Shown: positions 9,029-53,892 of the stretch, piece after piece | Layout: each line of letters opens with the position of its first letter | Position numbering within the stretch: position 1 is the stretch's first letter | Assembly (NCBI GenBank): GCA_947175195.1 | Contig: CAMWLQ010000001.1 | Span: forward strand, 186,001-250,000 | Origin: an uncultured Clostridia bacterium | Lineage (GTDB): Bacteria > Bacillota > Clostridia > Christensenellales > Pumilibacteraceae | Direction: 5' to 3' | DNA length: 64,000 bases | Made by a program: the position numbers and the translations under genes | Notes under the pieces: generated by a model | Databases searched by the model: none | Told to the model about the DNA's origin: nothing | The model's input: only the letters and a program-made list of their open reading frames with translations

Positions 9029-11113
9029 TCAATACAACAGTATATCGGAGTAGGACGGGAAGGGCCACAAGTCTTTGGGCATAACCGTTTCCAGCTTGTC
9101 GCAATACCCGCGCAGCTCCTGCATTGTAGCCACCACTTGGTTGTAGCTTACGTCAGCTTGGGCTTGCAGCTCCTCCGTCGCTTTGACTGCGGCTTGAGCG
9201 TCGCTTAGGCGTTGGGTAGCCGTATATGCGTTTTGTATCAATTCCGACACGGCGGACAGCATTTTTGTTTGCATACTCGCGTCCACTTTGAGCGCGGTAA
9301 GCTTGGATATGTTGTCGGCAAGCAGTGTGGAAAACTGCACGGCGGCGGGCAGGATTTGTTTGAGCACAAGCTCGGACATTGTCCCCGCCTCTATATTTAT
9401 CACCTTGCAATAGTTTTCAAGCAAAATATCCTTGCGCGCATGCACCTCCTCGTCGGTATAGATATTAAGCCTGTCAAACAGCTCGACGTTTTGCGAACGG
9501 TCGTAATACGACAACGCCTCAGGCGTGCTTTTAAGATTGAGCAGTCCGCGGTTTTTCGCCTCCTCCACCCACGCGTCCGCGTAGTTGTCGCCGTTAAACA
9601 CTATCCTGCGGTGCGCTATATACTCGCGCTTGATAAGCGCAAGCGCCGCCGCCTTAAAGTCTTGCGACTTCGCCTTTTCCAGCTCGTCGGCAAAAGCGTT
9701 TAACACGTCCGCCACCATGGCGTTTATCATTATGTTGGGACATGCGATATTGAGCGCACTGCCCAGCGAGCGGAACTCGAACTTGTTGCCGGTAAACGCA
9801 AACGGCGACGTGCGGTTGCGGTCGGCGGTGTCCTCGTAGATTACGGGAACGGATTCGACGCCGGTGCTCAGTCTATTACCCACATGATTGCTGTATTCCT
9901 TGCCCGACGCAAGCGTTTCGAGCAGGTCGGTTATCTCGTCGCCCAAGAACATGGAAATAATGGCGGGCGGCGCCTCGTTCGCGCCCAAGCGGTGATCGTT
10001 GCCCGCCGAGGCGACGGACAGGCGCAGCAGGTCCTGATGCTCGTCAACGGCCTTGATGACCGCCGTCAAAAACACCATAAACTGTAAATTGTTCTTAAGG
10101 TCCTTCCCCGGCTCCAAAAGGTTTTCGCCGTCGGAGGTGGAAACCGACCAGTTGTTGTGCTTGCCCGATCCGTTCACGCCGTCAAACGGCTTTTCGTGCA
10201 AAAGGCAAGCAAGGTCGTGCTTTTCCGCGACCTGTTTCATAATAGCCATTGTCAGCTGGTTGTGGTCGGTCGCGATATTGACGGTGGAATATATGGGCGC
10301 CAGCTCGTGCTGTGCGGGCGCAACCTCGTTGTGGCGGGTCTTGGCGTAAACGCCCAGTTTCCACAGCTCGTGGTCGAGATCCTCCATGTACCTAAGCACA
10401 CGCATTTTAATACTGCCGAAATAGTGATCGTCCAGCTCCTGTCCCTTGGGCGGCTTTGCGCCGAACAGCGTTCTACCCGTAATAATAAGGTCGGGGCGCT
10501 TTTTGTACAGCTCGCGCGGGATCAAAAAGTATTCCTGTTCGGGACCGACTGACGCGGTTACGCGCTCGGGCGTTTTGCCGAACAGCTTGAGCACGCGCTT
10601 TGCCGCATTGCTCAGTGCGTCCATCGAGCGGAGCAGCGGCGTCTTTTTGTCGAGCACCTGACCGGAATAGCTTATGAACGCGGTGGGAATGTACAGCACG
10701 CTGTCCTTGACGAACGCATAGCTTGTGGGGTCCCATGCCGTGTACCCGCGCGCCTCGAAGGTGGAGCGCAGTCCGCCTGACGGAAAGCTGGACGCGTCCG
10801 GCTCGCCCTTAATAAGCTGCTTACCCGAAAAATTCATTATGACCGCGCCGCCCTCCGCGGGACTTATAAAGCTGTCGTGCTTTTCCGCGGTAACGCCCGT
10901 CATCGGCTGAAACCAGTGCGTGTAGTGCGTAGCGCCCTTTTCGATAGCCCAGTCCTTCATGGCGCTTGCCACTCCGTCGGCGACCTCGGATGATATGGGC
11001 TTACCCGTTTTAATCGTTTTTTGCAGCGCCTTGAATATTTCCTTGGGCAACCGCTCGCGCATTACCTGCTCGTTAAACACCATAGATCCGAATAATTCGG
11101 GGACGTTGGTCAT
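9029..11113 (-). CDS. glnN: Glutamine synthetase type III
   Basis: A 694-residue GSIII, the long form of glutamine synthetase that makes glutamine from glutamate, ammonia and ATP. Diagnostic segments: the GSIII-specific N-terminus ([20 protein letters not shown]), [12 protein letters not shown] (about 187-198) with catalytic glutamates, [14 protein letters not shown] (262-275), and the ATP-loop-like [10 protein letters not shown] (314-323). A helical C-terminal extension follows. The length is typical of GSIII (about 700 residues). The start has a GGAGG site 7 nt upstream. It is monocistronic, with a consensus promoter and an unusual perfect hairpin at the mRNA 5' end. Confidence 0.96.
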
Positions 11114-11131
11114 AATGTAACCTCCATAAAG

Positions 11132-11163
11132 ACAAAGACGTCACATATCGATGACGTCTTTGT
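11132..11163 (-). promoter_or_regulatory. Perfect 12-bp inverted repeat at the glnN transcript start
   Basis: Arms ACAAAGACGTCA (11132-11143) and TGACGTCTTTGT (11152-11163) pair perfectly around an 8-nt loop. The repeat begins about 10 nt downstream of the glnN -10 box, so it lies at or next to the transcript 5' end and about 20 nt before the glnN start. It is not followed by a T-run on either strand. It could be an operator for a dimeric regulator or a 5' stabilising stem. Confidence 0.75.
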
Positions 11164-11172
11164 GCTAAAAAC

Positions 11173-11202
11173 ATTATATGCCCGCGCGCCAAAAGATGTC
11201 AA
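11173..11202 (-). promoter_or_regulatory. Promoter of glnN
   Basis: TTGACA (11197-11202), 18-bp spacer and TATAAT (11173-11178) on the minus strand; both boxes are perfect consensus. Confidence 0.85.
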
Positions 11203-11254
11203 GCAAAATGACATATTTACCGACGGTATGCACCGCAAATTTCCTAAAAGGCCC

Positions 11255-11283
11255 TTGATTTTTACACAATTATATGCTATGCT
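11255..11283 (+). promoter_or_regulatory. Promoter of the VTC/DUF4956 operon
   Basis: TTGATT (11255-11260), 17-bp spacer, TATGCT (11278-11283), about 30 nt before the ATG at 11315. It supports that start over upstream in-frame codons. Confidence 0.6.
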
Positions 11284-11314
11284 ACCAATAGTAATTTTCG
11301 GCGTAGAGGACATA

Positions 11315-12034
11315 ATGGCAAGCATATGCGTGTTCAAGCGGTACGAATACAAATATTTGCTCACAGCTGAGCAATATTTTGCCGTGCTTAACGAGATAGA
11401 AAAGCATATGGCTGCGGACAAGTACGGCAAGTCCACCATCCAAAGCCTTTACTACGACACCGACGATTACCTGCTTGCGCGGCGGTCGCTGGAAAAACCC
11501 ATGTACAAGGAAAAGCTGCGAATGCGCAGCTATTGCCAAGCCAAGGACGACGACGAAGTGTTTTTGGAACTTAAAAAGAAATACGACGGTGTGGTATTTA
11601 AACGGCGGATAGAGCTTACAGCGGCGCAAGCCGAGCACGGACTGTTCGACTGCGTGCGCGCCCTACCCGACCAAATATCCAAGGAAATTACATACGCAAT
11701 CGACATGTACAAAACGCTCGCGCCAAAAATTTTGCTGTTGTACGACCGCACGGCATATTTCGGCAAGGATGACGAAAGCGGCTTGCGCGTAACGTTCGAC
11801 ACCAATATACGGTACAGAATGGACAGGCTGACGATGTGCGGCGGCACCGACGGCAAGCCCGTGCGCACGGACGGAAAAATACTTATGGAAGTTAAGGCGG
11901 GCGCGTCCATTCCGCTGTGGCTGTGCAGGCTGATTAGCTCGCTCGGCATACGCAAAACGTCATTTTCCAAGTACGGCACGGCGTACACCATAGAACACGA
12001 CAACATATTTACGGAGGTAAAGCAAGTTGGATAA
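11315..12034 (+). CDS. VTC-domain protein (polyphosphate polymerase-like)
   Basis: A 239-residue protein made almost wholly of a VTC domain, the tunnel-fold catalytic domain that makes polyphosphate from ATP in yeast Vtc4. Visible signatures are FKRYEYKYLL at the N-terminus, SLYYDTDDYLLARRSLEKP, KLRMRSY, VFLELKKKYDGVVFKRRIEL and a late LMEVKAG strand; the alternating basic residues would line the tunnel. The frame extends upstream to 11162, but the ATG at 11315 is chosen because AGAGGA precedes it and the promoter lies between. It overlaps the DUF4956 gene by 8 bp, a pairing common in Firmicutes. Polymerase activity is inferred from family. Confidence 0.88.
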   Translation: MASICVFKRYEYKYLLTAEQYFAVLNEIEKHMAADKYGKSTIQSLYYDTDDYLLARRSLEKPMYKEKLRMRSYCQAKDDDEVFLELKKKYDGVVFKRRIELTAAQAEHGLFDCVRALPDQISKEITYAIDMYKTLAPKILLLYDRTAYFGKDDESGLRVTFDTNIRYRMDRLTMCGGTDGKPVRTDGKILMEVKAGASIPLWLCRLISSLGIRKTSFSKYGTAYTIEHDNIFTEVKQVG

Positions 12035-12710
12035 ATTTTTCGCAACTGTTTTGACAGGCAAGTTAGACCCCGGCACGTTCTTTTTGTGCTTGGGCGTGGC
12101 AATAGTTACGGGCGTTATGCTCACGTTTATGAGCTATTACGGATCGCATTCGTCCAAAAGCTTTTACGTAGCCACCGCCCTGCTCCCCGCCGCGGTATCT
12201 ACCATATTCATACTTATCAACGGCAATATCGGCGCGGGCATAACCGTTGCAGGCGCGTTCACGCTGGTGCGCTTTCGTTCGGCGCAGGGCACGGCAAAGG
12301 AAATTTGCATAATATTCGTGGCAATGGTCGCTGGGCTCGCATACGGCATGGGGTATCTCGCCTACGGCGCTATATTCGCGGTTGTCGCAGGAGCTTGCCT
12401 AATGCTTTGCACCCGCCTCAAGCTGTGGAACAAAAAACCGAGCGCCAAAGACAAGACGCTGCGCATCACCATTCCCGAGGACCTCGACTATACCACGGTG
12501 TTTGACGATTTGTTTGACAAGTACACAGCAAGCCGCGAGCTTGTTCAGGCAAAGAGCGCCGACCTCGGCAGTGTGTTCCGCCTCACCTACAACCTTACGC
12601 TAAAAGACCCCGCACAGGAAAAAGCGTTTATAGACGAGCTGCGCGTGCGCAACGGCAACTTGGACATATCGCTTGGCAGAGTGGAATACCGCGTAGGCGA
12701 ATTATTGTAA
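12027..12710 (+). CDS. DUF4956 membrane protein
   Basis: A 227-residue protein with four or five TM segments in its first 130 residues (about 18-36, 45-65, 66-85, 93-109, 112-128) and a soluble C-terminal domain. The conserved GAFTLVRFRSAQGTAKEI segment after TM3 is typical of DUF4956. The start is TTG (12027-12029) behind GGAGG; the more usual ATG is absent nearby. Coupled to the VTC-domain gene by an 8-bp overlap. DUF4956 proteins are commonly encoded beside VTC-domain proteins, and a role in anchoring or polyphosphate handling at the membrane is inference. Confidence 0.9.
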   Translation: MDKFFATVLTGKLDPGTFFLCLGVAIVTGVMLTFMSYYGSHSSKSFYVATALLPAAVSTIFILINGNIGAGITVAGAFTLVRFRSAQGTAKEICIIFVAMVAGLAYGMGYLAYGAIFAVVAGACLMLCTRLKLWNKKPSAKDKTLRITIPEDLDYTTVFDDLFDKYTASRELVQAKSADLGSVFRLTYNLTLKDPAQEKAFIDELRVRNGNLDISLGRVEYRVGELL

Positions 12711-12808: not shown

Positions 12809-14398
12809 TTATTCCGTGGTTTCGCCTTTAGCCTCTTCGATTTGCTTGTCGGTGGGAATATCGCCCTTGGCGCGCTGACCGACAAATATGGGCTCGGCGC
12901 CCTCATGAGTTAAATCAACAAAGTACGCATAGCCGGTTGCCCACTGATCGACCTCGGCATAGTATGTGAAATACCCTGCCGCATAGTCGCAGCCGAACGT
13001 TGCCGAGGACGTGTTTTCGGCAAGCAGCTGAGCCTCGCCATAACCGTCCATATTTTTGAACAGCGGAACGCGGTAGTAGTCCGAGCTGCTGCCCGCAAAG
13101 TACAGGTAGCCGTCCTTAATAAACTGCGGCGTGCCCGTTGTCGAGCAAAGCGTTTGCGCCGCTACGGGATTGTTCTCGTCGTTTTGGTACAGCGACATAC
13201 CGCTGCTTGTAACGCCTACAAAGAACACCTCGTTGCTGTTTTTGTCGTCGCGGAAAGCATAGGTGGACGTTATCGAGCTGGATATAGCCGTCGAAAATGT
13301 GCCGGTTATGTCCGTCGTCTTTTCGTCCTCGTTCTCTATGGCGTCCTGCGCCTTTTTATAGCTCTTGGAATATTCCATGAGCATGTTGTGAAGATTGGTG
13401 TACTTGATTTTGGTATCGTTTACCTCGGTCGTGCGGTAGAACAGCATACCGTCGCGCACAGCCTCTATCGTTTCGGTTTGACCGGACATGGACACCACAA
13501 AGTTTTCTTTGCCGTTGGGGCGCATAGCCTCTATTACGGTGCCGCTCTTTTGCGTATCGCTGTCCTTGACCTCGCGAACAAAGTAAATAAAGTCCTCAAG
13601 CTCGTTGGTGCTTATGCCCTTGTAGTAGGTTTCCTTTACGGGGAAATATACGCTGGTCGCGCCCACCTTAAATGTTACGGGGTCGTCCGCTTTTGCCTTA
13701 TCGGGATTGACCTTGACCGATACGATGTTTGTATTTTCATGCACAACCAAGTACACGCTGCCGCCGTACTTGTAGAACGCGTATGCCGACGACGAGGTGT
13801 CCACCTTTTCGGTAGTGGTGTAAATCTTGGTGGGCTTACCGCCTTTGAGCGGCATCATAAAGAAATCGGTGCGAGTCGTTTGAACTGTACCCGACTTGTT
13901 CTTTTCGTTGTTGGGCGATGCGAAATATGCGTAGTTATCGTAAATGAACAAGCCGCCGTTGGCGTAGCCTTCCGTGCCGATCGTCTTGGGCGCTATCTTG
14001 GTAGTGCCTACAACGTTTATCTCGTTGTCGAAGTAATCATTGCCCTTTGTGTACTTGAAGGCGATACCTTCCTCATCGGCTTGCTGGACAAATTCAAGCT
14101 TATTATCGGCGCTTTTTTCGCCGTTAAGCTGAGCGCGGTACAGTCCGCCTTTTACCACGCTGTCCCAAACGTTGGCTTTGCCGTCCGAATCGGAATAGCC
14201 GCGATAGCCGTTGATAAAGTAGATGTTATTGCCGTACGCCACCGCAGAGCCGCCTTGGCTGGTGACCGCATAGGACGTATCTTGCGCCGAAAATTTGATT
14301 TCCGAGTAGTGGTCGCCGCTGCAACCCAACATTGCGGCGGGCGTTATGGCAAGCACCGCTGCAAGCGCTATCGAAGTGGCAAGTTGAGATTTTTTCAT
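12809..14398 (-). CDS. Predicted lipoprotein, beta-propeller-like
   Basis: A 529-residue exported lipoprotein. The signal peptide has a KK start, a hydrophobic core and a lipobox ending LGC at Cys26. The mature part contains repeated blade-like units with aromatic-rich strands: AYGNNIYFING, GGLFIYDNYAYFASPN, KYGGSVYLVVHE, IKDGYLYFAGSSSDYYRVPL. This resembles DUF5050-type propellers, but I am not sure of the family. The start has GGAGC at correct distance. It lies 76 bp downstream of the degenerate GH2 gene in the same direction, so the two may be co-expressed. Ligand and function are unknown. Confidence 0.8.
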   Translation of the reverse strand: MKKSQLATSIALAAVLAITPAAMLGCSGDHYSEIKFSAQDTSYAVTSQGGSAVAYGNNIYFINGYRGYSDSDGKANVWDSVVKGGLYRAQLNGEKSADNKLEFVQQADEEGIAFKYTKGNDYFDNEINVVGTTKIAPKTIGTEGYANGGLFIYDNYAYFASPNNEKNKSGTVQTTRTDFFMMPLKGGKPTKIYTTTEKVDTSSSAYAFYKYGGSVYLVVHENTNIVSVKVNPDKAKADDPVTFKVGATSVYFPVKETYYKGISTNELEDFIYFVREVKDSDTQKSGTVIEAMRPNGKENFVVSMSGQTETIEAVRDGMLFYRTTEVNDTKIKYTNLHNMLMEYSKSYKKAQDAIENEDEKTTDITGTFSTAISSSITSTYAFRDDKNSNEVFFVGVTSSGMSLYQNDENNPVAAQTLCSTTGTPQFIKDGYLYFAGSSSDYYRVPLFKNMDGYGEAQLLAENTSSATFGCDYAAGYFTYYAEVDQWATGYAYFVDLTHEGAEPIFVGQRAKGDIPTDKQIEEAKGETTE

Positions 14399-14474
14399 AT
14401 TTGCTCCAAAAAAGATGATGACCGATTTAAATTATTACCGTTTTAATAAACATTAATTCGCAGGCTGCGCGGGC

Positions 14475-16742
14475 TCAGTTTTTGATTTTGAACGAAACCC
14501 TTGCGGCAAGCAGTCCGTCGCCTGTAACCTTGACAACCGCTTTGTTTTCGGCGGGGTCGGGACGGATGACCGCCAGCGCCTTGCCGCCGTATGCGGGACA
14601 GCTGTCAAACGAATTTTTCCTGAGCATAGGGTCGGCGTTTACAAATCCGATTAGCTCGCCGCCAGTCACGGTTACGTTAAGCTCGCGCATTGCGTACGGA
14701 ACAAGCTCCCCGTCACGGTCGCAAACCTCTACGTACACAAACCCGACGTCCTTGCGCCCTACCGACAAATTCTTGGAATACGCGGTCAGCCTGAGCGTTT
14801 TGGGCGATGCCGCCGATTTGAGCCGCGACCGCGCGCACTCCGTACCCTTAAAGTACGCAACCGCCTCGAGCGTGCCGGGATAGTAATCCACGCTGAACGA
14901 CGCTATGTGTTTGTTCACCCTGCCCGCAAGCTTTCGCCCGACTATGCGTCCGTCAAGATACAGAGCAACAACGTCGCCCGACGTGTAAACCTCCACGTTC
15001 ACCTTTTGACCAAGGTAGCGCGGCCAGTTCCACATATGCACGGGCTCGCCGCCGTCGGGGTCGCGCACAACAATGTACGCAATTCCGCGCTCGCCCAGCA
15101 ACACGCGCTTGTACACGCTTTGCGGCTTGTCGCAGCCGATGGCGTCCAAATCGCCGAAGGTGGTTGTGTTTTCGTTGAGCTTGCCGCCGCCCGGGTAATC
15201 CATACCGCAGTCGTTAAAGTCGCCTATTACGCGGTCGTTCTTTTCGGTGGCGTCCAAGCTGTCAAAAGCATGCTCGCTGTCCGTGCGCGCGCCTATAATA
15301 AGCCGATCGCGCTTGGATAGCTCCGTTTCGTACAACGGATATAAATAATTGAACCCGCAAACGTCAACCGCGTCGAACGCGCCCGACGTAAGGTCCTCGA
15401 ACAAACTCTTCTCTCTACCCGCATTGATTGCCGCGGCGTCGTTGTCGAACACCGTCTTGCGGCAGCCCGCTTGCTCCAGCTCGCCGCGCGTAGGCACCTG
15501 CTCGCGCGTGGAAACGGTGACGGGACGGGTATTGTCTATTTCCTTAATCCTGTCCGCTATCGCCTTGATAAGCTCGTGACCGTCGTAACGGTTGTAGCAC
15601 TCCGCCACGTCGTCCGCAACGCCGTATACCGTCACCGACGGATGGTTGCGCAGCTCGGCAATCTTGGGGAACACCGAGTAGTAGCGGCGGTCGCTAAGCA
15701 CCCCGCCCAGCGGAGATTTAGGCTCGTTAAGGCACGGGAACAGGTCGACAAAAACGTACATACCCACGTCGTCGCACGCGTCAAGCGTAGCGGCGGTGGG
15801 ACAGCCTACGTAATGAACGGCGTTGTAGCCGATTGCTTTGAGCGCCTCTAATTTGCGCTTTTCGTTGCAGTACAGCGACACCGCGCCGAGCGCAACGTCG
15901 GCGTGCGACATATACGCGCCCATAAGCAGCGTTTTGCGATTGTTTATATACAGTCCGCGCGTTTGCGAAAGCATGCGCGACACAATGCCAAACCGCGTCG
16001 TAGCGGCGCACGGCTCACCCTCGCCATCGGCGGAAACAAGCTTTGCCGTCATCGTATACATATACGGATCGGACGGCGACCATTCGTACGCGTTGTTTAT
16101 GCGCACGCGCACCGACAGCGTTTTGTTTTGGTTGGCTCTGAGAAAAATCTTGCGCTGCTTTTTGCCCGCGCGTTTGCCGCGCGCATTGAGCACCGTGCAG
16201 TCGAGTACAAATTTTTGCGGCTTGTCCGAATCGTTAAATACGGTGACCTCGGTATCGGCGTACACCCTGTCGCCCACAACCGCAGTCTTTACAAACGGAT
16301 AATCTATGCCGTAAGGCGTTGCGTTTTCGGCGTAAACAAGCTCCACGCCGCCCGCTATGCCCAAGCCCAAATACTTGTCCGACATTTCGGGCGAAGTGAT
16401 GAGCGAGATTTTTATCGTATTGTGCGCGCCCGCAAGGTTTACGGTAAAAACATGCGGCGCGTAACCGTCGTTAAGCAGCCCGATGCTCTTGTCGTTTACA
16501 AACACCTCGCCGTAGCCGCATACCCCGGTAATCTTTATGTCGACCAACCCGTTGCCGTTTTTTATTTGCGGCAAAGCGCGTGTAAACACCGCCCTCTCGG
16601 TCGGAATATACCCGTTGAGCGCGCCGAAAGCGCACGTATAGTCGCGTGCGGCGTGTGCGGTTACGTCATACGGAAGATCGCAGGCAATGCTTTCCTCCCC
16701 GACGACCACATTCCAATTCGAGTTTAAATCGACACTTTTCAT
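14475..16742 (-). CDS. GH2-family protein with degenerate active site
   Basis: A 755-residue protein with the glycoside hydrolase family 2 layout: jelly-roll domain (about 1-150), immunoglobulin-like domain (about 160-255), TIM barrel (about 260-500) and C-terminal beta domains. The barrel keeps 'IGYNAVHYVG...DACDDVGMYVFVD', but the catalytic motifs have decayed. The acid/base segment HPSVxxWSxGNE reads HPSVTVYGVADD (367-378), with Asp-Asp for Asn-Glu. The nucleophile segment (usually IIGSET) reads IIGARTD (482-488), with Arg where Glu is expected. No signal peptide is seen. The start sits 6 nt after the -10 box, so the mRNA is probably leaderless. It is likely a pseudoenzyme or carbohydrate-binding protein. 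Confidence 0.85.
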   Translation of the reverse strand: MKSVDLNSNWNVVVGEESIACDLPYDVTAHAARDYTCAFGALNGYIPTERAVFTRALPQIKNGNGLVDIKITGVCGYGEVFVNDKSIGLLNDGYAPHVFTVNLAGAHNTIKISLITSPEMSDKYLGLGIAGGVELVYAENATPYGIDYPFVKTAVVGDRVYADTEVTVFNDSDKPQKFVLDCTVLNARGKRAGKKQRKIFLRANQNKTLSVRVRINNAYEWSPSDPYMYTMTAKLVSADGEGEPCAATTRFGIVSRMLSQTRGLYINNRKTLLMGAYMSHADVALGAVSLYCNEKRKLEALKAIGYNAVHYVGCPTAATLDACDDVGMYVFVDLFPCLNEPKSPLGGVLSDRRYYSVFPKIAELRNHPSVTVYGVADDVAECYNRYDGHELIKAIADRIKEIDNTRPVTVSTREQVPTRGELEQAGCRKTVFDNDAAAINAGREKSLFEDLTSGAFDAVDVCGFNYLYPLYETELSKRDRLIIGARTDSEHAFDSLDATEKNDRVIGDFNDCGMDYPGGGKLNENTTTFGDLDAIGCDKPQSVYKRVLLGERGIAYIVVRDPDGGEPVHMWNWPRYLGQKVNVEVYTSGDVVALYLDGRIVGRKLAGRVNKHIASFSVDYYPGTLEAVAYFKGTECARSRLKSAASPKTLRLTAYSKNLSVGRKDVGFVYVEVCDRDGELVPYAMRELNVTVTGGELIGFVNADPMLRKNSFDSCPAYGGKALAVIRPDPAENKAVVKVTGDGLLAARVSFKIKN

Positions 16743-16748
16743 ACTCTC

Positions 16749-16777
16749 ATTATAACAACATGCAAGACAAAATGCAA
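16749..16777 (-). promoter_or_regulatory. Leaderless promoter of the GH2 gene
   Basis: TTGCAT (16772-16777), 17-bp spacer, TATAAT (16749-16754). Exactly six bases separate the -10 box from the ATG at 16742, which puts +1 at the start codon. The GAGAG between them would not be transcribed as an SD site. Confidence 0.75.
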
Positions 16778-16899
16778 GTGAATTAAAGCGTTTTTTGTAT
16801 TTATCAAATTAAAATATCGAAAAAACGCCTTTTTTTGAATATTTTTTGATTGGAGAATTTTTCAGCCCGAAAACCGCATAATCGGGCGGATAACTATCG

Positions 16900-17778
16900 T
16901 CACATCCGTTCATGAAGAACGCCTGTGGGCGCGGGCGCAAACACTCGTGCGCCGACCCCTTTAAGCGCCGTATAGCACTCGTAAAATGCTTGAATATCGG
17001 TAAAATAGCCGAGCGTCATGCCGCCCGACCCAGTAAGATTGACTGCCGCGCCGTAGGAACGGAGCAGCTCGGTATTCTTTGCTATTTCGGGCGAAAAGTA
17101 CACCGCAGGCTCGTACAGCGCGTTGCCCAAATGCTCTATCGCCTTGTTGTCGCCGTCCAACAAAAGATTGCACAGCTTGTCCGTATCGGTCGGGCAGTGT
17201 TTGCAATCCTTGTGCAGCTCGTCGAATTTTTTGTATGCCGCGGCGGTGGAAACGGGATTTGCCATAAGCCCGACCGTGAACAGCTTGAGCTTGTTTTCTA
17301 TAAAGAAAAGCTCCTCGCCCAAACCCGTAACGCGCGCCAGTCCGCCCGTCAGCATAAACGGAACGTCCGACCCTACGAAAAGCGCAAGCTTGCGCATATT
17401 CACGCCGAGCTGCGGCAGCTTGTACAGCACGTCCAGCGCGCGCAACACTGCCGCGCCGTCCGCCGACGATCCACCCAAGCCAGCACCTATGGGTATGCGT
17501 TTTTCCACGGTGATGTCAAAGCCGTTGCAGCCTATTATGTCCTGCACGGCTTTTGCCGCCTTGTACGCGGTGTTGTTTTCGGCGGGCACAAGGTCCGTGC
17601 CGATAAACTTTACGTTTATTTGTTTGTCGTTGCGCTCGGCTACGGTAACGGTGTCGAACACGTCCACCGACATCATCACGCTGTCCAGCATATGCATGCC
17701 GCGCGCCTCGTCGCAACCGGTAATATTGAGCGAAAGATTGACCTTTGCAAAGGCTCGTAATTTAACGGTATTATTCAT
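16900..17778 (-). CDS. ispE: 4-diphosphocytidyl-2-C-methyl-D-erythritol kinase
   Basis: A 292-residue GHMP kinase that phosphorylates CDP-methylerythritol in the MEP isoprenoid pathway. It begins AFAKVNLSLNITG, has the ATP loop PIGAGLGGSSADGAAVLRAL and the third GHMP motif as NLTGSGGMTLGYF. The length is typical. The frame stays open to 17844, but ATG 17778 is chosen because homologues begin at the LRAFAKVNLSLN segment and because the promoter overlaps the upstream extension. There is no SD site; the -10 box ends 6 nt before the ATG, so the transcript is probably leaderless. Other MEP-pathway genes are not in the window. Confidence 0.95.
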   Translation of the reverse strand: MNNTVKLRAFAKVNLSLNITGCDEARGMHMLDSVMMSVDVFDTVTVAERNDKQINVKFIGTDLVPAENNTAYKAAKAVQDIIGCNGFDITVEKRIPIGAGLGGSSADGAAVLRALDVLYKLPQLGVNMRKLALFVGSDVPFMLTGGLARVTGLGEELFFIENKLKLFTVGLMANPVSTAAAYKKFDELHKDCKHCPTDTDKLCNLLLDGDNKAIEHLGNALYEPAVYFSPEIAKNTELLRSYGAAVNLTGSGGMTLGYFTDIQAFYECYTALKGVGARVFAPAPTGVLHERM

Positions 17779-17784
17779 ACCGCA

Positions 17785-17814
17785 ATTATACACCGCACAA
17801 AAAAGGTTTGTCAA
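17785..17814 (-). promoter_or_regulatory. Leaderless promoter of ispE
   Basis: TTGACA (17809-17814), 18-bp spacer, TATAAT (17785-17790), both perfect consensus. Six bases lie between the -10 box and the ATG at 17778. Confidence 0.85.
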
Positions 17815-17826
17815 TCGAAATGAAAA

Positions 17827-17903
17827 AAGGTTGAGACTCCTCACTGCGTTCGGAGTGACAAAATTATTTTGTCATTCCGAGCAACGCGAGGAATCTCAAC
17901 CTT
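17827..17903. repeat. 77-bp imperfect palindromic element (MITE/REP-like)
   Basis: Both ends carry AAGGTTGAGA in inverted orientation, and the arms (about 37 bp each) pair with few mismatches around a TA-rich centre flanked by TGACAAAAT/ATTTTGTCA. It holds the 'TCATTCCGAG...GAGGAATCTC' core seen widely in interspersed bacterial repeats. No ORF. It sits between the ispE promoter and the 3' end of the SipL-like gene. Confidence 0.75.
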
Positions 17904-17906
17904 ATT

Positions 17907-17934
17907 TAATTCCTAATTCCTAATTCCTAATTCC
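17907..17934. repeat. Heptanucleotide array, four TAATTCC units
   Basis: Four exact tandem copies of the 7-bp unit TAATTCC, directly after the palindromic element and before the stop of the SipL-like gene. Related 7-bp-period arrays occur near 19522, 20265 and 24968. Confidence 0.8.
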
Positions 17935-17944
17935 GAATTAATTG

Positions 17945-19417
17945 CTATTTATTGCAAAAATTAATCAGCCTCTCCCCGCCCGAATACGGCGCGGTGGCGG
18001 AATTTTGTTGCTGCACGCGTTCGGGCGAACAGCACAACGCCTTTGCCGCCTGCCACAGCGTTTCGCCCTCTTTGGCGATATGGATAATTACCGATGCGTC
18101 GGGGCGTGCAAGCTGCTCGCCCTTTTCTACCGAGGCGATACATTCGCATTGCTCGGACGATGACAGCATAAGCGTAAACGCCACCTCGGCTTTTATGTCG
18201 AATACCGACTCGCGCCGTATCTTTACGTTCACGTCGGTGACGGTTGCGATTGCCGTTACCTGCGTGGCGTCGGTATGGTTTGCCAGCGGCATAGCAAACG
18301 GCAGGCGGAAGGCAAGCGCGTCAACCGCGTTCTTTTCCGCATTGTAGTAGATTATATCGCCGCTGACTACGCCCTCAACGTTGACGCGCTCGTTTTCTAT
18401 CTTGGTCGACGTGAGCGTGCAGGACGTGCCGGTCACGCAAAGAACGTTATCGGCGGCAAGCCTATCCGCCTCTATGGGAATTTGCCCGTCCACGGTATCG
18501 ATAACGGTGGTAAGCGGCTCTACGGTAACGCACCGCAATGCTTGTTCGGTTGAAAGTATCTCGTTGTCGGCGCAAAACACGTCGGTCACTACGTCGGCCG
18601 TTGCCGAGGTTAGCGCGGTAGCGTTCAGCCTAACGGTTGCGGCAACCTCGATGCGGTTTTCGCCCGCTATAGGCGTAGCCGAGCTGTCGGTAACATGCGC
18701 ATAAGCAAACACGACGTCGCCGTCATGGACGGGCGCTGCCATGCTCTTTACAAACGGCGTTACGATGCGCATATGCGATATTGTGCCGTCGTCCGTCTTG
18801 ACCGCGACAAAGGTGTATACAGCGCCCGACACCTTTATCTCACCGTCCGCCGCCTCCGCGCCCGTAACTATGGCGCGGCTTGTCGAACACACAACGTCGG
18901 AAATTTTGGGCGCGCCCACACTGTCGGTTACGTACACGATTTCGCTTGCGTCGGCGCAAGCGGTGCAGTACGATAATGTGCGCTTTTCGGCATATATCCC
19001 CTCGTCGGGCTGGGCTATGCACGCGTAATCATTGTCCACAACCGCAACGGCTGCGGTATCCACAACAGCCACCGCCTTGAGCGTGCCGCCTTCCACCGTC
19101 GCCTCTACGTTTATCACTTCGGGAATGAGCGTAACGGCTGTGCCTGCGGTGATTTGCGGCGCCGTGATTTTATCGGAAAACTCGGCGACCGCGGTGACGC
19201 ACTGCACCGCGCCGTCCACCAGCACCATGCAATCGAACGTGGTTTTGCCCACGTACCGCGCCTCACCCGCAAATACCTCGCTCGGCGTTGTCACCGCCGT
19301 AGCCGATGCGGACAGCACCTTGCAATCGCTGTTTATCGGTTGCCGCGCCTCGACCACCGCCTGACCGCGTGCAATCCATACAATTTCGTCGCTCTTAATA
19401 TTGATGTTTTCGGGCAT
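17945..19417 (-). CDS. SipL-like SPOCS (DUF3794) and LysM domain protein
   Basis: A 490-residue protein with repeated beta-rich SPOCS/DUF3794 units (about 1-130, 150-290, 300-430) and a C-terminal LysM-like domain (about 440-490: GETLWQAAKALCCSPERVQQ). This is the architecture and approximate size of SipL, which in Clostridioides difficile binds SpoIVA through its LysM domain and directs spore coat assembly. No signal peptide is present, as expected for a mother-cell protein. The start has AAGGAG. It supports a spore-forming ancestry; whether this organism sporulates cannot be told from one gene. The LysM lacks some usual residues. Confidence 0.82.
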   Translation of the reverse strand: MPENINIKSDEIVWIARGQAVVEARQPINSDCKVLSASATAVTTPSEVFAGEARYVGKTTFDCMVLVDGAVQCVTAVAEFSDKITAPQITAGTAVTLIPEVINVEATVEGGTLKAVAVVDTAAVAVVDNDYACIAQPDEGIYAEKRTLSYCTACADASEIVYVTDSVGAPKISDVVCSTSRAIVTGAEAADGEIKVSGAVYTFVAVKTDDGTISHMRIVTPFVKSMAAPVHDGDVVFAYAHVTDSSATPIAGENRIEVAATVRLNATALTSATADVVTDVFCADNEILSTEQALRCVTVEPLTTVIDTVDGQIPIEADRLAADNVLCVTGTSCTLTSTKIENERVNVEGVVSGDIIYYNAEKNAVDALAFRLPFAMPLANHTDATQVTAIATVTDVNVKIRRESVFDIKAEVAFTLMLSSSEQCECIASVEKGEQLARPDASVIIHIAKEGETLWQAAKALCCSPERVQQQNSATAPYSGGERLINFCNK

Positions 19418-19521
19418 AATGCACTCCTTGAAATAGTTATCGCTATATGATATTCTCCGTGCCGCTCAATTATGCCCGATAAAATAACTGGATGAAAATT
19501 CTTTATAAAATGTTTGTCGAA

Positions 19522-50649: not shown

Positions 50650-50952
50650 ATGTACGATCTTAAATGCGGACAAAAAAATTGCAAGCACAACCACGGCTAC
50701 TGCTGCTGTGCAAAGGACATAGCCGTATCGGGCGGCACGCGCTGCACCACTTATGAGGAATGCGAGGGCGGCTGCGACTACAAAACGGAAACCTCCGCCG
50801 AATTCAGCAAACCAGACTTTTCGGTTGACACGTGCGTAGCGTGCAACGCGCCCTGCCTATTCAACCGCGCGGCAAAATGCATAGCCAACGGCATAACGGT
50901 ATCCACCGCCGACGACGGCACTGCGGAATGCTTGACGTTTATTAAGAAGTAA
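50650..50952 (+). CDS. Tandem DUF1540-like cysteine-rich protein
   Basis: A 100-residue protein with 14 cysteines. Two similar halves: CGQKNCKHNHGYCCCAKDIAV...CTTYE (about 6-37) and CVACNAPCLFNRAAKCIANGI...CLTFIKK (about 62-100). Both follow the DUF1540 pattern (C-x3/4-C-x2-N-x4-C-x-A-x2-I...C-x-TF), a small probably metal-binding domain of Firmicutes with unknown role. GGAG precedes the ATG. Terminator follows. Confidence 0.82.
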   Translation: MYDLKCGQKNCKHNHGYCCCAKDIAVSGGTRCTTYEECEGGCDYKTETSAEFSKPDFSVDTCVACNAPCLFNRAAKCIANGITVSTADDGTAECLTFIKK

Positions 50953-50978: not shown

Positions 50979-51004
50979 AAAAACAGCCCGCTTGGGCTGT
51001 TTTT
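50979..51004. terminator. Bidirectional terminator
   Basis: Stem AAAAACAGCCC/GGGCTGTTTTT with a GCTT loop between convergent genes; its right edge touches the stop codon of the Mrr-type gene. Confidence 0.88.
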
Positions 51005-52002
51005 TATTCTCTTAATTGTTGTATAAGTATGTCCCTATTCCATAATGTTATTGGTTTTTTACTTTCTTTTGCCAGTGTAATTGCAGAAGTTTGAAAATAA
51101 TTATTAGTTATTACCATTCCTTTTGTGAGGTTATAATGTTCAAAACCACCAAGAACTTCTTGAACCGCCCGTAAAGACACTTTTTTTGAATATCGTTTTA
51201 ATTGTATTCCAATCCTTTCTGTTCCAGTAGTAATAATAAGGTCAATTCCCCAGTCCCCCGACGTAGGTGTTCTATATGTATTGTAACCTTTCCGTTTAAA
51301 ATATTGTTCCATATATTTCTCAAATTGTTCGCCAGTCATATTATCTACTTTTTGAATGGGGGTCATCGTCGTATTTTGCATTGTTTTATTTTGTTGCGTT
51401 TTTTTCCTTTGATATACCTCCGACAAATAATCCCATTGCGCCACACAATCACGCACGTTTTGTTCTCTATAATTTCTTTCTTGTTTGTAAATCGTTTTTT
51501 CTAAATCTATATCTTGCATACGCGTTTCGGGATATGACACCGACTCAATAACAATATTTTTAATTACATTATCATCATTAACATTGATATTCTCGTCAAA
51601 GTTACATGTATAAGTAGTATCCGTTTGACGTTTTCTATTCACTCTTTTTCTCCGTCTTGGAACAAAAACAGTCATAACAAATGTAATGATTGGCATAAAT
51701 GATAAAACCATTGATATAACAATAAAATAAAATATTATTTTCGATATACTGTCACCATATATACTATCACTATATATACCAATCAACAAACCATATCCAA
51801 TAATACTATTGACAAAAAGAAATAAACTAATTATTAATAGCGCAATAAACCGTTTAGAATGCTTTTTGCAAAACTCTGTTTGTTGTGTAATATTCTTTGC
51901 TCCAAACTTGTTTAATTTATAAAGAACTATGACAGCATAAACAAAAACTATATAAATCAATATAGCGACAATAATGCCATATGTTAGTAAAAAATTTTTC
52001 AT
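51004..52002 (-). CDS. Membrane-anchored Mrr-type restriction endonuclease
   Basis: A 332-residue protein: three TM segments (about 4-27, 53-75, 86-112), a strongly basic stop-transfer stretch (RRRKRVNRKR) that keeps the rest cytosolic, a polar helical linker, and a C-terminal Mrr_cat domain. The domain reads GEQFEKYMEQYFKRKGYNTY, then the PD-(D/E)xK core GDWGIDLII...GIQLKRY, then VQEVLGG and GMVITNNYF. The catalytic Glu, Asp and QxK are all visible, so the nuclease is probably active. Start ATG 52002 follows GGAG with a longish gap; an ATG at 52029 overlapping the previous gene is possible. AT-rich. Confidence 0.82.
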   Translation of the reverse strand: MKNFLLTYGIIVAILIYIVFVYAVIVLYKLNKFGAKNITQQTEFCKKHSKRFIALLIISLFLFVNSIIGYGLLIGIYSDSIYGDSISKIIFYFIVISMVLSFMPIITFVMTVFVPRRRKRVNRKRQTDTTYTCNFDENINVNDDNVIKNIVIESVSYPETRMQDIDLEKTIYKQERNYREQNVRDCVAQWDYLSEVYQRKKTQQNKTMQNTTMTPIQKVDNMTGEQFEKYMEQYFKRKGYNTYRTPTSGDWGIDLIITTGTERIGIQLKRYSKKVSLRAVQEVLGGFEHYNLTKGMVITNNYFQTSAITLAKESKKPITLWNRDILIQQLRE

Positions 52003-52019
52003 ATGTTGTATAATCTCCG

Positions 52020-52766
52020 CTAAATGCATTTTTCTAAGATTGCTTTCAATTCATTCTGCGCATTTACAGTCTGCTGTTCCGTTGACAGTAAAATTTCATG
52101 CAATTCTGAAACTGACTTAGCTCTATCTATGTTTTTAGAAAATGCATCTAACTCTCTTGCCGCTTGCTTACGTTGTTCAGTCACTGCCCTAACCCATGAC
52201 ACAATAAATTGCGATATTTTTTCAATTTTCACACTCAATGTAGAATCATTATGACATTGTTGGGCTGCTGATTTATAACCTGTATTTATAAATATCATCA
52301 TCTCAGTTGTCATTTTTACCAATAAATTCATATTGCATGGGATATAATTAAAAAGTTGCATTTTATGAGCTGCGGTTAATAATTGTTCTCTAAGCATATC
52401 CATTTCTAAATTGTATAGTAACAAATCTTTCCCTTCTACTTTGTCATTAACAAGAATGTTTAATGGTTTTTTTAAGCTACTATACTGTGTTATGCCATCA
52501 CATATATCAGCTAACATAATTTGTTCGCTACGAATATTGTCCTTTATTTCTCTTTTTGTAGAAGCAAGCGTATATTTCTTATTTTGCAAAACAGCTATTA
52601 CACCTAAAACAATCGCGGCAATTCCACTAACCCAGCCGCTAATTGCTGTAAATATATTCGCACCACAGTTATTATATAAGCAAGCAAGTAAAACATTCAC
52701 AGCACATAAAATGACTGCTAAAATAGTTAGAGAAACCCATAGCGCTATATACTTTCCTTTGTTCAT
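52020..52766 (-). CDS. Two-TM helical membrane protein, cassette partner
   Basis: A 248-residue protein: two TM segments (about 6-30 and 38-60), then a 185-residue cytosolic all-helical region (KREIKDNIRSEQIMLADICD...). No enzymatic motif is seen and I do not know the family. It is directly upstream of the Mrr-type gene (ends overlap its possible first codon). Both are AT-rich and flanked by normal-composition genes, so the pair looks like one acquired unit. The start ATG 52766 has no strong SD. Confidence 0.7.
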   Translation of the reverse strand: MNKGKYIALWVSLTILAVILCAVNVLLACLYNNCGANIFTAISGWVSGIAAIVLGVIAVLQNKKYTLASTKREIKDNIRSEQIMLADICDGITQYSSLKKPLNILVNDKVEGKDLLLYNLEMDMLREQLLTAAHKMQLFNYIPCNMNLLVKMTTEMMIFINTGYKSAAQQCHNDSTLSVKIEKISQFIVSWVRAVTEQRKQAARELDAFSKNIDRAKSVSELHEILLSTEQQTVNAQNELKAILEKCI

Positions 52767-52947
52767 CCTAATTCTTCCACCTTTTGCTTAAAATTTTTTG
52801 ATTAATATTCGTTCCAAATGACCACTTGGTATTTTCAATATGTGTCATATGTTATAATTTTCTTTTACCTTTTCTATTTAAAACTCTGTTATAACATAGC
52901 ACAAAATCTTTTATACTCTAATCGTTGTACACATGTTAGGCGCAATA
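52767..52947. other. AT-rich intergenic region upstream of the cassette
   Basis: 181 bases, markedly AT-rich, with no ORF. It must hold the cassette promoter, but no clean -35/-10 pair stands out to me. No att-like direct repeat or tRNA is seen. Confidence 0.5.
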
Positions 52948-53892
52948 TTATGCTCCTGCGTCGATGTTCTTTTTCATCAGCTCGGCGAGTTGGAGATACT
53001 TTTTGATTACGGGCGAATCGGTGTATTTGGAGTATTCGCGCAGGTCAACAATTAACTCTTTAAGTTCGTTTACGTCGCGGCTTTTTACTACCTGCTCGGT
53101 GCGAGCGGCGGCGTTCCAGTTCATAAGATTTGTCGATTCGGGATAGCAATTCAACAGCGCGGTCGAGTATTCGCACACAAAGTCTACGTCGCCCTTTGCC
53201 ATGCGCTTTTCGAATACCTCGAATATATAATTGCGCCGCAAATCCATAAACGGCTTGTACCAGCCTAACAGCTTGTCCGCGCCGACAAGCTCTGCCTCGT
53301 CGCCTATCAGCATAGAGCCTTCCACCTCGCACGCCTCTTTATAAATCTTTTCCTCGTGCAGCATGGCAAAAAGCTTTTCGTCGTACTCCTCGTCCACGGG
53401 CTCGTTGGTCGCGTCCAAATAAAAATAGTACGTGTACCACAGCGCGCGCAAGTCCTTGAAAAGATTGCACACGCAGTACACCGCCGCGTACAGCGAAAGG
53501 CTGTCTATCGGCTGCCTATCGTCGGGCGGTATCACGCCGTTAAGCACAAGCTTATCAAACAGCGGCGAGCCGTAATCGTATTTGATAAAATACTTGCCGC
53601 CGCGCTCGTACCACCTGCCGCCCACCGCCAATACGTCGTTGGACGCCGCGGTATGTACAAATTCGGGCTTGCCCGCCTCGTAGTCGGGGTGGCGTTCGGG
53701 CTCTATCAAAAAGCAAATACCGTACTCGAAAAGCGTATTGCTCGGCTTTGCCGCATACTCGGGATAAACCGCGCACGCAAAGCAGTACAAATTGAACAGC
53801 AGCTCGCGCTTTAACTCGTACTTTAGGTCGCTGTCGCCCACGCGTTCAAACGTTGGCTCGAATAATTCTTTTATTGTTTGCAAAACTTCCAT
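52948..53892 (-). CDS. Hypothetical protein, 314 residues
   Basis: A soluble, Tyr/Phe-rich, acidic, mostly helical protein without signal peptide or TM segment. No catalytic motif recognised. It starts 6 bp after the GNAT gene stop and lacks a clear ribosome site, so it is probably translated by coupling. Normal base composition. Function unknown. Confidence 0.7.
   Translation of the reverse strand: MEVLQTIKELFEPTFERVGDSDLKYELKRELLFNLYCFACAVYPEYAAKPSNTLFEYGICFLIEPERHPDYEAGKPEFVHTAASNDVLAVGGRWYERGGKYFIKYDYGSPLFDKLVLNGVIPPDDRQPIDSLSLYAAVYCVCNLFKDLRALWYTYYFYLDATNEPVDEEYDEKLFAMLHEEKIYKEACEVEGSMLIGDEAELVGADKLLGWYKPFMDLRRNYIFEVFEKRMAKGDVDFVCEYSTALLNCYPESTNLMNWNAAARTEQVVKSRDVNELKELIVDLREYSKYTDSPVIKKYLQLAELMKKNIDAGA

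Follow-up and report, generated by a model that had tools for sequence, protein, structure and literature searches.

A foreign two-gene insert in a gut Clostridia bacterium encodes a predicted membrane-anchored Mrr nuclease and a membrane partner

Introduction

Zorya, Kiwa and SNIPE are classed together in a review as systems that sit at the membrane and act on DNA (PMC12904381). SNIPE, as its report describes it, combines a transmembrane segment (TM), DUF4041 and a GIY-YIG nuclease; the tape measure protein is contacted via DUF4041, and without the TM the nuclease is toxic (PMC13190303). That study (Nature 2026) showed for GIY-YIG the principle of a membrane-held nuclease cutting entering DNA, and the word 'Mrr' does not occur in its main text (PMC13190303). 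Type I Zorya (ZorA, ZorB, ZorC, and ZorD) joins membrane proteins to the Mrr-like nuclease ZorD, according to two sources (PMC11890865, PMC12904381). Kiwa consists of two genes, for a membrane protein (KwaA) and a DNA-acting protein (KwaB), the latter binding DNA without cutting it (PMC12904381). Transmembrane proteins are often seen to act as suicide effectors in defence systems, as stated in a further source (PMC9122126).

Here we analyze a pair of genes, both on the minus strand, in a 64-kb stretch of a gut Clostridia bacterium (the window, meaning the whole stretch analyzed). They encode a Mrr protein with three predicted TMs and a separate two-TM partner. Like SNIPE, the pair would have a nuclease that is anchored in the inner membrane and keeps its catalytic domain in the cytosol, with an N-terminal region that varies between relatives. 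It differs from SNIPE in its Mrr PD-(D/E)xK fold, three predicted TMs, and separate membrane partner gene, and in having no DUF4041; neither GIY-YIG nor DUF4041 gave a Pfam match in the pair up to E 1. The best PADLOC match of the Mrr protein was the ZorD model, limited to its C-terminal part (930–1060 of 1071), the Mrr domain. In contrast to Zorya, the nuclease itself bears the predicted TMs; no MotA/MotB-like protein or helicase was matched in the pair, and the partner matched neither ZorA nor ZorB. The Kwa models (KwaA and KwaB) matched neither window protein. PADLOC also includes Mrr-type restriction genes (mREase_IV and the candidate PDC-S02) that resemble the window gene in their Mrr-like nuclease domain. 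In the window protein and eight relatives tested, these matches cover the Mrr domain only and leave the N-terminal TM part outside; the best PDC-S02 model covers residues 209–339 only (profile 181–318 of 346) and is not a whole-length match. On the best reading, the window pair would work like SNIPE or Zorya while being a member of neither SNIPE, Zorya nor Kiwa. The accessible parts of the literature searched (including PMC13190303, PMC9519451, PMC9122126, PMC11890865, and PMC12904381) contain no pair of a three-TM Mrr protein and a two-TM protein, which is no proof of absence because most subscription papers lie outside this scope.

We hypothesize, with a probability of roughly 0.45, that the insert is a horizontally acquired operon whose membrane-tethered Mrr nuclease and membrane partner act together against entering DNA, most likely that of a phage at injection.

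Results

A sequence-only reading of this DNA had described two adjoining minus-strand genes, and we confirmed that they are real, with coordinates, strands, and lengths exact. The Mrr protein gene (51004–52029, minus strand, 341 aa) follows the partner gene (52020–52766, minus strand, 248 aa), whose stop codon overlaps the Mrr gene start. The frames share 10 bases, an overlap resembling those of coupled operons, and reading of the sequence places a plausible ribosome site 5′ of the partner gene. Both genes lie in an AT-rich insert (51005–52947, right end approximate) between two convergent native genes. To the left are a DUF1540 gene (50650–50952, plus strand) and, at the junction, a terminator-like hairpin (50979–51004) with the Mrr stop codon inside its T tract; to the right is a gene of 314 aa without a Pfam match (52948–53892, minus strand). 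Both flanking genes adjoin the site in the genus. The insert has 30.6% GC versus a mean of 52.2% (sd 2.6) for equal-length windows elsewhere in the 64 kb (z −8.3), the lowest of which outside the insert has 43.8%. Third-position GC is 23% and 27% in the two insert genes versus 60–70% in four neighbours. These values bear out the AT-rich insert claimed from the sequence, as does the site comparison below. Its surroundings, called 'otherwise uniform', are roughly so (42% to 58.5% GC in 1-kb windows clear of the insert). The G/C counts given for two 60-base rows were also exact (16 in 52321–52380 and 28 in 53221–53280), but a single AT-rich row proves little because 15 of 1033 rows outside the insert have 16 G/C or fewer as well.

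Chance ORFs were rejected for both frames, as 500 first-order Markov shuffles of the insert gave no ORF longer than 153 aa. We also rejected transposon ends at the junctions, as no direct repeat of at least 14 bases spans both; shorter repeats would escape this detection. Promoter consensus sites in the insert (17, versus 11.9, sd 3.7, in shuffles) were uninformative. The insert is foreign and was probably acquired horizontally, and the overlapping frames and shared base composition suggest that the Mrr and partner genes travelled together.

Flank queries matched all 20 genomes of the genus, own included. The site was compared in the 15 of 19 other genomes that carry both flanks on one contig; G301, G295, G309, and G307, with flanks on different contigs, were left unclassified. 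Seven of the 15 have a short gap (65 bases in G292, 77 in G296 and in G294, 94 in G300, 109 in G291, 228 in G297, and 207 in G308, a figure that is too large because the right-flank match starts late), and eight hold other DNA (594–8216 bases). A strict scan of the first 140 gap bases found a terminator-like hairpin in two of the seven short sites (G300 and G292) and five of the eight filled ones; the hairpins of G300, G292, and G304 are near-identical to that at the window's left junction. The site in G304 holds type I restriction genes (HsdM, HsdS, and HsdR), a SoFic-like Fic gene, and a DUF4062 gene, the last present in 3/20 genus genomes. Elsewhere the filling comprises a 23S_rRNA_IVP protein (G305), HTH proteins (G302 and G299), DHFR (G293), adenine deaminase (G303), a similar ORF (G306), and a large lipoprotein-like ORF with a CPCC protein (G298). 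Among the ORFs tested from these seven sites, PADLOC matched no non-HTH ORF and gave HTH-domain matches for two HTH ORFs. The site is variable, with a known defence system in only one of eight filled sites (G304). By reading, each end of the G302 insert (L032) carries a similar terminator-like sequence.

The three-TM Mrr protein and two-TM helical protein of the sequence-only reading were recovered by a hydropathy script and by Pfam. In the Mrr protein, predicted TM helices (residues 18–36, 61–79, and 98–116) are followed by a basic segment and low-confidence linker (~120–225) and a Mrr PD-(D/E)xK domain. Mrr_cat (PF04471) matches residues 229–337 at E 6e-29 (100.9 bits, cut-off 21; profile 2–113 of 115). 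NA-iREase1, a Pfam family of inactive nucleases, matches the same region more weakly (44.5 bits, cut-off 27). The active-site residues are D263, Q276, and K278. Across 46 aligned Mrr domains (the window's plus 45), D263 is kept in all and [Q/E/H]xK at 276–278 in 34, the 12 sequences without the motif all coming from family f96. Since D263 and QxK align in the window domain, the residues missing from inactive forms are present here, and the nuclease motif is, by alignment, complete, as the reading of an intact nuclease had held.

An AlphaFold model of the Mrr protein (four sequences) had a mean pLDDT of 65, with 72–88 for the nuclease domain in blocks of ten and values below 50 for residues 123–188 and 212–220. 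Strands and helices appear in the expected order. D263 opens one core strand and QxK closes the following one, which is the arrangement of the PD-(D/E)xK fold that the domain is predicted to adopt. A 13-row profile of the Mrr domain matched AF1548 (1y88) and LlaBIII (4xqk) in the PDB (E about 1e-4), where the single Mrr protein sequence had 0 matches. RRRKRVNRKR follows TM3, a charge pattern that favours a cytosolic nuclease domain; by the positive-inside rule, the bulk domains of the Mrr protein and the partner would both face the cytosol. PADLOC, a check proposed with the sequence-only reading, matched the Mrr protein over the nuclease domain only, and its one match for the partner (LeoBC, E 0.68) is at chance level.

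The Mrr protein matched 46 of 347 genomes of the order at E 1e-3 (own included), and 43 of the 47 non-own match places fall within residues 170–341. Mrr_cat occurs in 24/74 family genomes, own included; the domain is patchily distributed, and the window's Mrr gene does not behave as a widespread housekeeping gene, the outcome that the sequence-only reading had set against defence. We compiled 49 Mrr loci with wider flanks from 29 of the 47 order-search places and 23 of 25 Mrr_cat-search places (3 shared). The gene caller used gave a Mrr ORF for 45 of them (none for L086, L158, L166, and L176), and 24 of these ORFs carry at least one predicted TM segment. No relative of the partner was found at the 49 loci, several of which end at contig edges and where one-sequence phmmer may miss remote partners; nor was one found in plasmids, phages, or viral contigs. 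A conserved pairing is thus not supported: the same pair is adjacent at 0/49 Mrr loci, the rarity elsewhere that the sequence-only reading had itself named as evidence against it, and is known as a single instance. The suggestion of defence by a membrane pair is supported in part, by the insert, the complete motif, and the defence or mobile settings of relatives.

The TM part of the Mrr protein has one clear relative (39% over 111 aa), in G307. There, on a contig of 3720 bases (L048, contig 130), a rolling-circle Rep gene (REP_ORF2-G2P) adjoins a TM-Mrr gene that either is interrupted by an in-frame stop and a shift of frame or was wrongly assembled. The contig possibly represents a small plasmid or an element of phage type. 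It was also the one match for the TM part in GTDB genomes; there were 0 matches in viral contigs and 0 in phages, the phage query being the G307 relative. The Mrr protein matched 333 plasmid records, none covering 80% of the query, one locus in viral contigs, and 10 phage records, 7 of which are unannotated, unverified scaffolds. The plasmid copy examined (1 of 333 records) has no partner-like neighbour and, by reading, neither have the phage copies. All 10 phage records were examined, and nine of them gave a Mrr ORF. Four of these ORFs lack predicted TMs. The other five bear TMs at the N-terminus and are located close to an integrase (annotated for three and, by reading, for MT839810) or, in MT839334, flanked by HTH-like ORFs (by reading). 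The gene of Roseburia phage Jekyll (VUE37434.1) is, like that of G629, a solitary membrane-Mrr gene. The integrase/repressor region is a usual place of superinfection-exclusion genes.

The Mrr proteins of G629, G594 (two copies), and G307 have in common a helical domain of roughly 180–220 aa 5′ of the nuclease (L077 5177–6508; L078 5870–7660, twice; L048 601–1140, a piece without a Pfam match). It is not recognisable in the window Mrr protein. When the window linker was compared with five such helical regions, the observed score was reached in 103, 196, 7, 37, and 65 of 300 shuffles, and we took the single low value (7/300) as chance. Sequence likeness of the partner to the same domain was rejected, five comparisons being at chance (score reached in 30, 175, 200, 112, and 239 of 300 shuffles). 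The G629 Mrr gene lies just 3′ of an apparent tRNA (by reading).

The partner has predicted TM helices at 11–29 and 42–60 (hydropathy script), after which about 185 aa are modelled as all helical at low confidence; the AlphaFold model of the partner alone is poor (pLDDT 51). Pfam, PADLOC, NCBIfam, and PHROGs gave weak matches only, below cut-offs where these exist, the best in NCBIfam being ApyI (E 5e-4, 19 bits, cut-off 200). No relative beyond its own genome was found in 291 class genomes, nor in any of 57 candidate stretches picked by peptide patterns from GTDB genomes. Of 347 genomes of the order, 24 matched at E 0.1, own included. Among the 23 others, G603 and G388 were trusted and pursued, and G399, G439, and G327 were inspected, their matches being by reading a SEC-C-like ORF, a small membrane protein, and a transporter-like ORF. 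A three-row alignment of the partner had 0 matches in viral contigs, and its two relatives had 0 in plasmids.

The G603 relative (E 1.7e-8, residues 11–87) is flanked by DUF4391 and type III Mod genes, and its island also holds HKD+Snf2 helicase, Res, and DUF2971 genes. This type III restriction island (L134, G603:C13:3000-14000) additionally encodes a 478-aa membrane protein. The G388 relative (E 1.5e-6, residues 35–227, 22% identity) has on one side an HTH-like gene together with a helical ORF (by reading) and on the other a phage-type integrase. Aligned locally to the partner, G603 scored 130 and G388 112, where the best of 300 shuffles reached 77 and 66. When only the soluble part was aligned, G603 did not exceed chance (42, mean 40) and G388 barely did (69, maximum 63). 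The three-row profile, run on 391 class genomes (matches in G725 and G095 were left unopened), added G697 in the membrane part (E 2e-5). Here a Tn7-like element with TnsA, B, C, and D beside a glmS-like gene (L191, G697:C1:1396000-1415500, 9338-12408, 13457-19500) carries type I restriction, a Mrr gene, the two-TM hairpin protein, and a CAP12/Pycsar-type TIR gene (PADLOC PDC-S35). A 49-nt repeat is seen three times (65–100% identity) between the element's genes. The hairpin protein and the Mrr gene are 278 bases apart with the repeat between them, the nearest likeness to the window pair. The packing of defence genes in this element is integron-like. G603 and G697 share mainly the TM hairpin with the partner, only G388 aligns beyond it, and two of the three relatives have no Mrr-like ORF in the stretch compared. 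Because the settings of all three are defence or mobile ones and their cytosolic parts differ, the membrane hairpin looks like a movable module with varying cytosolic parts, although three cases are few.

Discussion

In the mechanism that we propose for a joint action against entering DNA, three TM helices would tether the Mrr nuclease beneath the membrane, at a distance from the bulk of the chromosome, where it would meet DNA as it enters and be kept off the cell's own. Through its TM hairpin the partner would expose its helical domain on the cytosolic side as well, and this domain may sense entry or restrain the nuclease until entry. The partner would thereby be a sensor, brake, or scaffold, the two proteins presumably bind each other, and the nuclease would cut incoming DNA. 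We count in favour the foreign composition, the variable site, the restriction genes at the same site in G304, the 10-base overlap, the complete motif, and the defence or mobile settings of relatives. Against it we count the pair's occurrence at 0/49 loci, the 7/8 other filled sites without a known defence system, the NA-iREase1 match, partner relatives that share mainly the TM hairpin, the partner model's pLDDT of 51, and the four phage Mrr ORFs without TMs, which were not placed beside an integrase.

A defence role of some kind is likely when this proposal is summed with two alternatives. The pair might instead cause abortive infection, the Mrr domain recognising foreign or modified DNA and the two-TM helical partner damaging the membrane to stop the infected cell. 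Transmembrane proteins are often seen as such effectors in defence systems (PMC9122126), and the partner had no close relatives in the searches made, as would often be expected of fast-changing effectors; yet this model has no need of three TMs on the nuclease, whose active residues are complete, and two of the three partner relatives lack a Mrr-like ORF in the stretch compared, so we consider it unlikely. The 45 loci with a Mrr ORF, none with a partner homologue and 24 with TMs of their own on that ORF, suit a Mrr gene that is a self-sufficient membrane-nuclease defence gene preceded by chance by unrelated cargo, as do the examined plasmid copy and the phage copies (by reading) without a partner-like neighbour. 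The 10-base frame overlap and shared base composition suggest joint travel, however, and this reading too is unlikely.

The gene order, smaller protein first and overlapping nuclease second, would also fit a toxin–antitoxin-like unit in which the host is damaged by the nuclease if the partner does not keep it in check at the membrane, and the SNIPE nuclease is toxic once its TM is removed (PMC13190303). This reading is improbable, as relatives that carry the complete motif but have no such partner point to tolerance without one. Metabolic or regulatory genes occupy several of the other filled sites, and membrane-Mrr proteins of family f96 persist without active residues in steady surroundings, as might be expected if the insert had no defence role and were decaying or neutral foreign DNA, or served to take up DNA or handle the chromosome at the membrane. 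Nevertheless, both window frames are long and open, the motif is complete, and the f96 form, GC-matched and without QxK, is unlike the window gene; the lack of any defence role therefore seems very improbable.

If our proposal of a membrane-tethered nuclease acting with its partner is true, the principle described for SNIPE, a membrane-kept nuclease cutting entering DNA, would hold for the common Mrr fold as well, and in a version made of two proteins. 'Restriction endonuclease' genes of gut bacteria and temperate phages whose TMs have lacked an explanation would gain a role, and self could be told from non-self without DNA modification. More speculatively, and with a low probability, membrane-anchored Mrr nucleases could form a large class of entry-stage immunity that has been overlooked. 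Its membrane and helical adapter parts would be interchangeable, it would travel with phage integrase/repressor regions, with rolling-circle elements, and through insertion sites in chromosomes, and the window partner would be a split sensor. The window Mrr protein has no counterpart of its relatives' helical domain, and the separate two-TM helical partner may supply that role in trans, a step argued from architecture because partner and helical domain show no sequence likeness.

The f96 form is apparently a membrane-bound, inactive Mrr fold of a distant lineage in steady surroundings. It differs from the window gene, which is neither GC-matched nor without QxK. The 12 Mrr-like ORFs called from f96 (L163–L165, L167–L171, L173–L175, and L178) all lack QxK, a count that covers called ORFs only, other f96 matches being unopened and L176 having given no ORF. 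Eleven of the 12 have two to three TMs. Their GC content matches the surroundings, and several lie, by reading, beside kinase-like or FeoB-like ORFs.
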